Shown piece after piece: positions 17,291-33,499 of a DNA stretch of 64,000 nt (its first letter is position 1; the number at the start of each line of letters is the position of its first letter). The notes under the pieces were generated by a model. It did no database searches. It was not told where the DNA came from and saw only the letters and a list, made by a program, of their open reading frames with translations. Origin of the DNA: Streptomyces sp. DG1A-41 (GTDB taxonomy: Bacteria; Actinomycetota; Actinomycetes; Streptomycetales; Streptomycetaceae); NCBI RefSeq assembly GCF_037055355.1, contig NZ_CP146350.1, positions 3,371,001 to 3,435,000 on the forward strand, read 5' to 3'. The position numbers and the translations under genes are program-made.

Positions 17291-17307
17291 GCCGAGCGCA
17301 CAGCGAA

Positions 17308-17340
17308 GAACCCCGGCCCTGAAACCCAGGGCCGGGGTTC
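17308..17340. terminator. Bidirectional terminator
   Basis: A perfect 14-base stem, GAACCCCGGCCCTG (17308-17321) with CAGGGCCGGGGTTC (17327-17340), has a 5-base loop. It ends the membrane protein gene on the plus strand and, with TTCTTCG on the other side, the tRNA gene on the minus strand. Confidence 0.85.
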
Positions 17341-17345
17341 TCGTC

Positions 17346-17418
17346 TGGAGCGCCGGGCAGGCCTTGCACCTGCATTTCCCCGCAGGAAGCGGGGCGTCTT
17401 TCCTTGGACCACCAACGC
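17346..17418 (-). tRNA. tRNA-Gly(TCC), atypical
   Basis: A full cloverleaf of 73 bases with an encoded CCA is present. Acceptor GCGTTGG pairs with CCGGCGC (two G-T pairs), followed by discriminator T, typical of bacterial Gly. T8, A14 and G18-G19 are present. The D stem is GTC/GAC and the anticodon stem CCCCG/CGGGG. The loop CTTCCTG has T33 and anticodon TCC, but T at position 37. The T arm GCAGG/CCTGC has loop TGCAAGG, with G where the universal T55 belongs. This deviation recalls the staphylococcal tRNA-Gly species used for cell-wall synthesis. A terminator follows directly. Confidence 0.8.
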
Positions 17419-17459
17419 ATCGTCCGTCTACCGGAGTTCCTGCGACCGGACGCAGATCA

Positions 17460-17465
17460 ACTATA
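17460..17465 (-). promoter_or_regulatory. Candidate -10 box for tRNA-Gly
   Basis: TATAGT on the minus strand lies 42 bases before the tRNA 5' end in an otherwise GC-rich stretch. No good -35 is found at 17 bases, so this is only a partial promoter match. Confidence 0.4.
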
Positions 17466-17553
17466 GCGCAGTTTTCGTTATCGCCTCCGCCGTCCGGCCG
17501 TCTCCTCACCGTCCCCCGCAGGAACGCGACTTACGACGTTGAGGTGCGACAAC

Positions 17554-33419: not shown

Positions 33420-33492
33420 GCGCCCGTACGCCAACGGCTGAGCGGCGATCTTTAGGTGGTCGTGTCTGTCGGTTCGAATCCGACCGGGCGTA
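33420..33492 (+). tRNA. tRNA with anticodon TAG (Leu by code), short variable arm
   Basis: The 73-base cloverleaf has acceptor GCGCCCG with CGGGCGT and discriminator A, but no encoded CCA (CTC follows). The D stem is CGC/GCG with A14 and GG. The anticodon stem is CGATC/GGTCG with loop TTTAGGT, giving anticodon TAG for Leu CUA. The T arm GTCGG-TTCGAAT-CCGAC is canonical. The variable loop is only five bases (TGTCT), whereas tRNA-Leu normally has a long variable arm. It may be a diverged or non-standard tRNA. A strong terminator follows. Confidence 0.7.
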
Positions 33493-33499
33493 CTCAGAG

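Follow-up and report, generated by a model that had tools for sequence, protein, structure and literature searches.

A non-canonical tRNA-Gly gene

The window analysed here is a stretch of 64,000 nucleotides from Streptomyces sp. DG1A-41, covering positions 3371001–3435000 of a single 8.99 Mb contig. On its minus strand lies a gene for a non-canonical tRNA-Gly(TCC) of 73 nt including CCA (17346–17418), called by ARAGORN as tRNA-Gly(tcc) and characterized through its fold, a covariance model and pair counts; we refer to it here as type 1. Preceding the tRNA are a promoter-like module (17455–17470) and a leader (17419–17454), and directly 3′ of it is a terminator-like hairpin (about 17304–17343), all on the same strand. 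The neighbouring genes in the window are ordinary, encoding a 100-residue protein without a Pfam match, an alginate-lyase-like secreted protein, an HSP20 and an MFS transporter.

Read from sequence and fold, the acceptor stem has 7 bp, the D stem 3 bp, the anticodon stem 5 bp with an additional C32–G38 pair, and the T stem 5 bp. An earlier interpretation made without database searches (the sequence-only reading) had every stem of the cloverleaf forming; ARAGORN, the fold and the pair counts agree on the presence of the acceptor, D, anticodon and T arms, but the D stem is limited to three pairs, a fourth would be C–A, and the D loop is short. Two single-base peculiarities named in the same reading, G at 55 in the T-loop (TGCAAGG) and T at 37, are confirmed, and the gene further carries U73 and an encoded CCA. 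G at 55 is also a feature of the T-loop in staphylococcal non-proteinogenic tRNA-Gly. Taken singly, the sequence is weak evidence for a tRNA, because the Rfam model RF00005 omits it (at E ≤ 0.001, 80 other tRNAs are listed in the same genome) and its fold energy alone is unremarkable (z of −1.84); it is comparison between copies that settles the gene as real.

Conservation of the type 1 unit

A pattern search yielded 199 matches, leaving 192 contexts once identical ones were removed (73 from genomes found by BLAST, at least 116 from a genome scan and 3 from plasmids), which fall into 117 groups without shared neighbours. Because the D arm, T loop and most T-stem positions were set by the pattern, part of the conservation seen in them reflects how the contexts were chosen; the 3′ end, the anticodon arm and the flanks were left free. 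Averaged over pairs of the 117 groups, ungapped identity reaches 0.90 in the tRNA once the anticodon arm is excluded, a region that the pattern partly covers. In the flanks it falls to 0.36 over 50 nt downstream and to 0.40 over 50 nt upstream, where the leader is partly conserved between contexts, and to 0.30 in the background stretch from −140 to −90.

Covariation is modest. In alignment A1, with 33 distinct rows, 98.2% of cells pair; the number of cells changed on both sides (10) and the covariation score lie above those of all 500 shuffles, whereas the number of pairs changed on both sides is 2, a value reached by 154 of the 500. Pair 29:37 is GC in 21 rows and AU in 7; in the remaining 5, those with the shorter loops, the alignment leaves it unpaired.

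The bacterial glycine identity set described in PMC9976931 comprises U73, G1–C72, C2–G71, G3–C70, C35 and C36. C70, G71 and C72, together with U73 and the CC of the anticodon loop, are present in all 192 type 1 contexts, and G1, C2 and G3 are invariant over the 33 distinct rows. The encoded CCA singled out by the sequence-only reading, although present in the window copy, is not a conserved feature: it is found in 79 of the 192 contexts and so must usually be added.

The anticodon arm is more variable. All seven-base loops (176 of 192 contexts) have the form C-UUCCN-G, in which C32 and G38 are able to pair, and this main form keeps U33 and the anticodon UCC; base 37 is T in 151 of them, C in 24 and G in 1, giving a pyrimidine in 175. 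The 16 shorter loops comprise ten of six bases (CUCCAA or AUCCAA), from which pyrimidine 37 is absent, and six of four bases on a six-pair stem (AACC, AGCC or AUCC). In the T arm, A51–U63 is present in 33 of 33 rows, and pair 49–65 is G–C in 32 and G–U in 1, never A–U. By hand alignment G18–G19 are apparently kept in the D loop, whose shortness makes the numbering a reading. A canonical tRNA-Gly(TCC) was looked for in the same genome and exists (G000:C1:3058340-3058410), so type 1 is not its sole tRNA-Gly(TCC); where the canonical gene has G49–U65, G51–C63 and T55 (T-loop TTCGATT), type 1 has G49–C65, A51–U63 and G55. Comparison across contexts supports a tRNA that keeps its glycine determinants while its decoding features drift.

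Outside the tRNA, the promoter-like module in the window reads TGCGC-TATAGT-TGATC, its hexamer (17460–17465) lying 47 nt before the tRNA. The best TANNNT hexamer is 46–48 nt 5′ of the tRNA in 89 of the 117 unrelated contexts and exactly 47 in 60, and it is flanked in the majority of contexts by TG upstream (T in 95 and G in 85 of 116) and by GATC downstream; although chance alone would often put some TANNNT hexamer within the searched range, it would account for neither the clustering nor the TG and GATC flanks. No −35 element is shared among the 117 contexts, and a consensus scan finds no sigma-70 pair at 17455–17470. The leader folds no better than shuffled sequences (z of 0.06). The hairpin has a folding energy of −35.3 kcal/mol (z of −7.1); a stem with nine or more pairs follows the tRNA in 114 of the 117 contexts, compared with 15 when 117 random stretches are taken. 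The sequence-only reading had a terminator here; the hairpin itself is confirmed, but the consensus scan does not list it as a terminator, a long T run being absent.

With its core conserved, its flanks diverged and the hexamer spacing and hairpin kept, type 1 is a self-contained, free-standing unit that occurs at many unrelated places, and it is almost certainly a functional RNA gene.

Distribution and genomic context

BLAST matched type 1 in 62 of 121 genomes of the genus. A covariance model built from 34 sequences places it in 93 of 179 genus genomes and does not find it in the other 86, where the absences are upper limits, as the Infernal scans for this and the second tRNA type described below used stricter filters that may lose weak matches. 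The raw count at E ≤ 0.01 was 102 of 179; nine weak matches to other tRNAs or a chance stretch were dropped (G019, G025, G048, G090, G098, G112, G113, G135 and G167). In a sample of the order whose genomes overlap the genus set, 114 of 197 matched the model, or 107 after removal of seven weak ones of the kind dropped from the genus set (G195, G202, G206, G218, G325, G334 and G336). In a sample of the class, 15 of 23 genus genomes are positive; the 3 of 213 class genomes outside the genus that matched, at 49–53 bits only, proved to hold other tRNAs. Among the 80 type 1 loci listed with names, 79 are from Streptomyces and one is from Actinacidiphila (L189).

Up to six copies are found per genome, some near chromosome ends: G091, with six, has copies 37 and 49 kb from both ends. 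Larger genomes more often carry the gene (p = 5e-8). A 401-bp query matches 70 plasmid records, and among the 20 matches listed the match covers the tRNA; an exact-pattern scan of viral_contigs for phage carriage gave no stretch. On one contig (G233:C14, loci L432 and L433) several copies lie within tens of kilobases, all of them equipped with a separate promoter-like module and hairpin. Some copies are decaying, with 3′ fragments at L160 and L163 and a broken T stem at L429.

Also in the window, on the plus strand (33420–33493), is another odd tRNA of sporadic occurrence, a class-I ‘tRNA-Leu(tag)’ of 74 nt with a canonical T-loop and 44 Rfam bits; matches of nearly full length to it are present in 13 of 61 genomes of the genus. 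Leucine tRNAs normally carry a long variable arm. Elsewhere in the genome, a 76-nt tRNA-Leu(caa) called by ARAGORN (G000:C1:2151970-2152044, L141) is likewise below the usual length of leucine tRNAs.

A second non-canonical tRNA-Gly(TCC)

Reached through weak matches of the type 1 model is another non-canonical tRNA-Gly(TCC), here called type 2 (G000:C1:4302713-4302787, plus strand; L392:1501-1575), which precedes a tRNA-Gly(GCC) gene and scores 53.5 bits with Rfam, and for which ARAGORN makes no call in this genome. Its T arm (GCAG-T-G-TGCAATT-C-CTGT) has a bulged T in the stem, G55 and A51–U63. Five of 21 pairs are changed on both sides in ten sequences, a number reached in none of 500 shuffles. 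The type 2 model matches all 179 genus genomes at E ≤ 1e-12, 178 of them clearly; the weakest match, in G157 (4.3e-13), is about as strong as the cross-hits to canonical tRNAs and is not counted as clear. In the class sample it scores 97 bits or more in all 23 genus genomes, and none of the 213 genomes outside the genus exceeds 75 bits.

Among the six tRNA-Gly sequences compared from the DG1A-41 genome, type 2 is the nearest to type 1, with which it shares G55, A51–U63 and the UCC anticodon. It differs in being a core gene, in its normal seven-base anticodon loop, in the bulged T, in the A that replaces G18, and in its usual neighbour, a tRNA-Gly(GCC) being found nearby at 14 of 15 loci.

Further tRNA-Gly genes with unusual D or T arms occur at L334:1501-1574 (G325, tcc), L335:1501-1575 (G025, ccc) and L428:301-375 (G133, tcc), the anticodons being those given by ARAGORN. 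Another family of the class is represented by tRNA-Gly(tcc) genes with the T-loop TTCGCGA, which has C at 58 (L425:301-376 in G390 and L426:301-376 in G356).

Search for a partner gene

No linked partner gene emerges from clustering of the open reading frames around 64 loci and 192 contexts. A Pfam scan of 148 of the 202 neighbour proteins reveals no dominant family among the commonest 25 of 129, and tblastn with nine Fem proteins places a Fem gene within 8 kb of type 1 in one of the 192 contexts.

FemAB enzymes are encoded in all 179 genus genomes. Genomes with and without type 1 have similar numbers of them (3.4 and 3.1; p = 0.13), counted as matches, of which one gene may yield two, and FemAB number is unsupported as a correlate. 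Nor is Lant_dehydr_C supported: it is found in 56 of 93 genomes with type 1 and 64 of 86 without (p = 0.056).

Proposed role of type 1

The sequence-only reading proposed that type 1 serves a non-ribosomal route, the glycine bridge of the cell wall. The non-ribosomal part is well supported by comparison, with its pattern of kept glycine determinants and drifting decoding features, and type 1 most likely carries glycine for such a use; a dedicated cell-wall role is not supported for a gene that escaped detection in 86 of the 179 genomes, all of which encode FemAB enzymes. The donor for an obligatory glycine bridge should be universal, as type 2 is and type 1 is not, which suggests that type 2 is the stronger candidate for the core cell-wall role, with type 1 an accessory relative.

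From sequence comparison we infer how type 1 would be transcribed, charged, kept from EF-Tu and consumed. With the bacterial glycine determinants in place, type 1 would be charged by glycyl-tRNA synthetase, and glycylation is very likely. U73 would then guard the ester from D-aminoacyl-tRNA deacylase. Exclusion from translation is likely as well: the changed T arm (G49–C65, A51–U63 and G55) would keep the tRNA off EF-Tu and the ribosome, as would an anticodon loop stiffened by C32–G38 and pyrimidine 37. Charged type 1 would then supply a transferase of the Fem type, with its double GNAT fold. Altogether, we consider it probable that type 1 accepts glycine, has been withdrawn from protein synthesis and feeds such an enzyme. 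The single most likely consumer would be the enzyme of the cell-wall glycine bridge, for which type 1 would be an extra supply beyond core type 2, although that a cell-wall FemX is the main consumer is possible rather than expected. A two-tier supply of non-translational glycyl-tRNA, in which core type 2 would serve the cell-wall bridge while type 1 would be an accessory, mobile tRNA, dispersed in several copies and spread horizontally, is nearly an even call; the anticodon arm of type 1 may drift under such an arrangement because only charging and delivery would be selected. Against the reading as a non-ribosomal glycine donor for a Fem-type enzyme stand the lack of a linked gene, the similar FemAB numbers, the genomes without type 1 and the decaying copies, as well as the apparent retention of G18–G19 and the absence of A49–U65, in which type 1 is unlike the staphylococcal tRNAs.

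The main alternative consumers would be accessory enzymes that depend on Gly-tRNA, such as DhpK, Orf11 and the peptide aminoacyl-tRNA ligases, in place of the cell wall. Enzymes using Gly-tRNA are known in Streptomyces, the Fem-like DhpK and Orf11 being examples given in PMC12945691, and type 1 resembles accessory genes in its sporadic, multi-copy and plasmid-borne occurrence, its positions near chromosome ends and its preference for larger genomes. No biosynthetic family is prominent among the 25 commonest neighbour families, however, and Lant_dehydr_C, a family that takes in peptide ligases, tends if anything to be less frequent where type 1 occurs and is absent from the DG1A-41 genome; DhpK-like families are inseparable from FemAB in the FemAB count. 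We regard this assignment as unlikely, but as the foremost of the alternatives.

A regulatory or decoy RNA of tRNA-like form that donates no glycine is rather improbable. Such RNAs have a precedent in tRNA-Other of Bacillus cereus (PMC3399842), and both the drift of the anticodon arm and the failure of standard models to detect type 1 would suit one; retention of the glycine determinants, U73 and CC included, in all 192 contexts argues for a glycine acceptor instead. An ordinary, if odd, translational tRNA-Gly reading GGA and GGG is harder still to sustain: U33 and UCC in the seven-base loop of the main form would allow it, but 16 of 192 loops are shorter, C32–G38 closes the rest, 175 of 176 have a pyrimidine at 37, and the genome has its canonical tRNA-Gly(TCC). 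That type 1 is a functionless pseudogene or the remnant of a mobile element, as its few degraded copies might suggest, is contradicted by the conserved core between diverged flanks and by the kept hairpin and promoter spacing, and the 25 commonest neighbour families include neither integrase nor transposase; this reading is practically untenable.

The ribosome has competitors for Gly-tRNA in Fem-type enzymes and in several antibiotic pathways, and two candidate non-ribosomal glycyl-tRNAs, one core and one accessory, in a single tractable genus make the question of their use directly testable. Standard annotation can miss both, type 2 by ARAGORN in the DG1A-41 genome and type 1 by RF00005.

Comparison with known systems

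The open-licence literature searched contains no report of a type 1 or type 2 tRNA. Among tRNA-like RNAs outside translation, tRNA-Other of Bacillus cereus is described as affecting the cell wall and antibiotic resistance (PMC3399842). Type 1 is similar to it as a tolerated, accessory tRNA-like gene that would act outside translation, but tRNA-Other is reported there to have a Trp anticodon and to be poorly charged with lysine, whereas type 1 has the full set of glycine determinants.

Closer to type 1 are the tRNA-Gly species of staphylococci that serve the FemXAB enzymes. According to PMC4052509, G49–U65 and G51–C63 are strong EF-Tu pairs that are replaced in the staphylococcal cell-wall tRNAs by A49–U65 and A51–U63, and GG at 18–19 becomes UU or CU in non-proteinogenic tRNA-Gly of this type. 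A pyrimidine at 37 is noted in staphylococcal cell-wall tRNA-Gly in PMC2630981, and U73 is described in PMC6097841 as protecting non-proteinogenic Gly-tRNA against deacylase. Among the features described in these sources, type 1 shares U73, A51–U63 and the pyrimidine at 37. It is unlike the staphylococcal tRNAs in having G49–C65 in place of A49–U65, in seemingly keeping G18–G19, in the C32–G38 pair that closes its anticodon loop, and in being dispersed, multi-copy and missing from about half of the genomes. With three staphylococcal features shared and two missing, we classify type 1 as working like the staphylococcal group rather than as one of its members.
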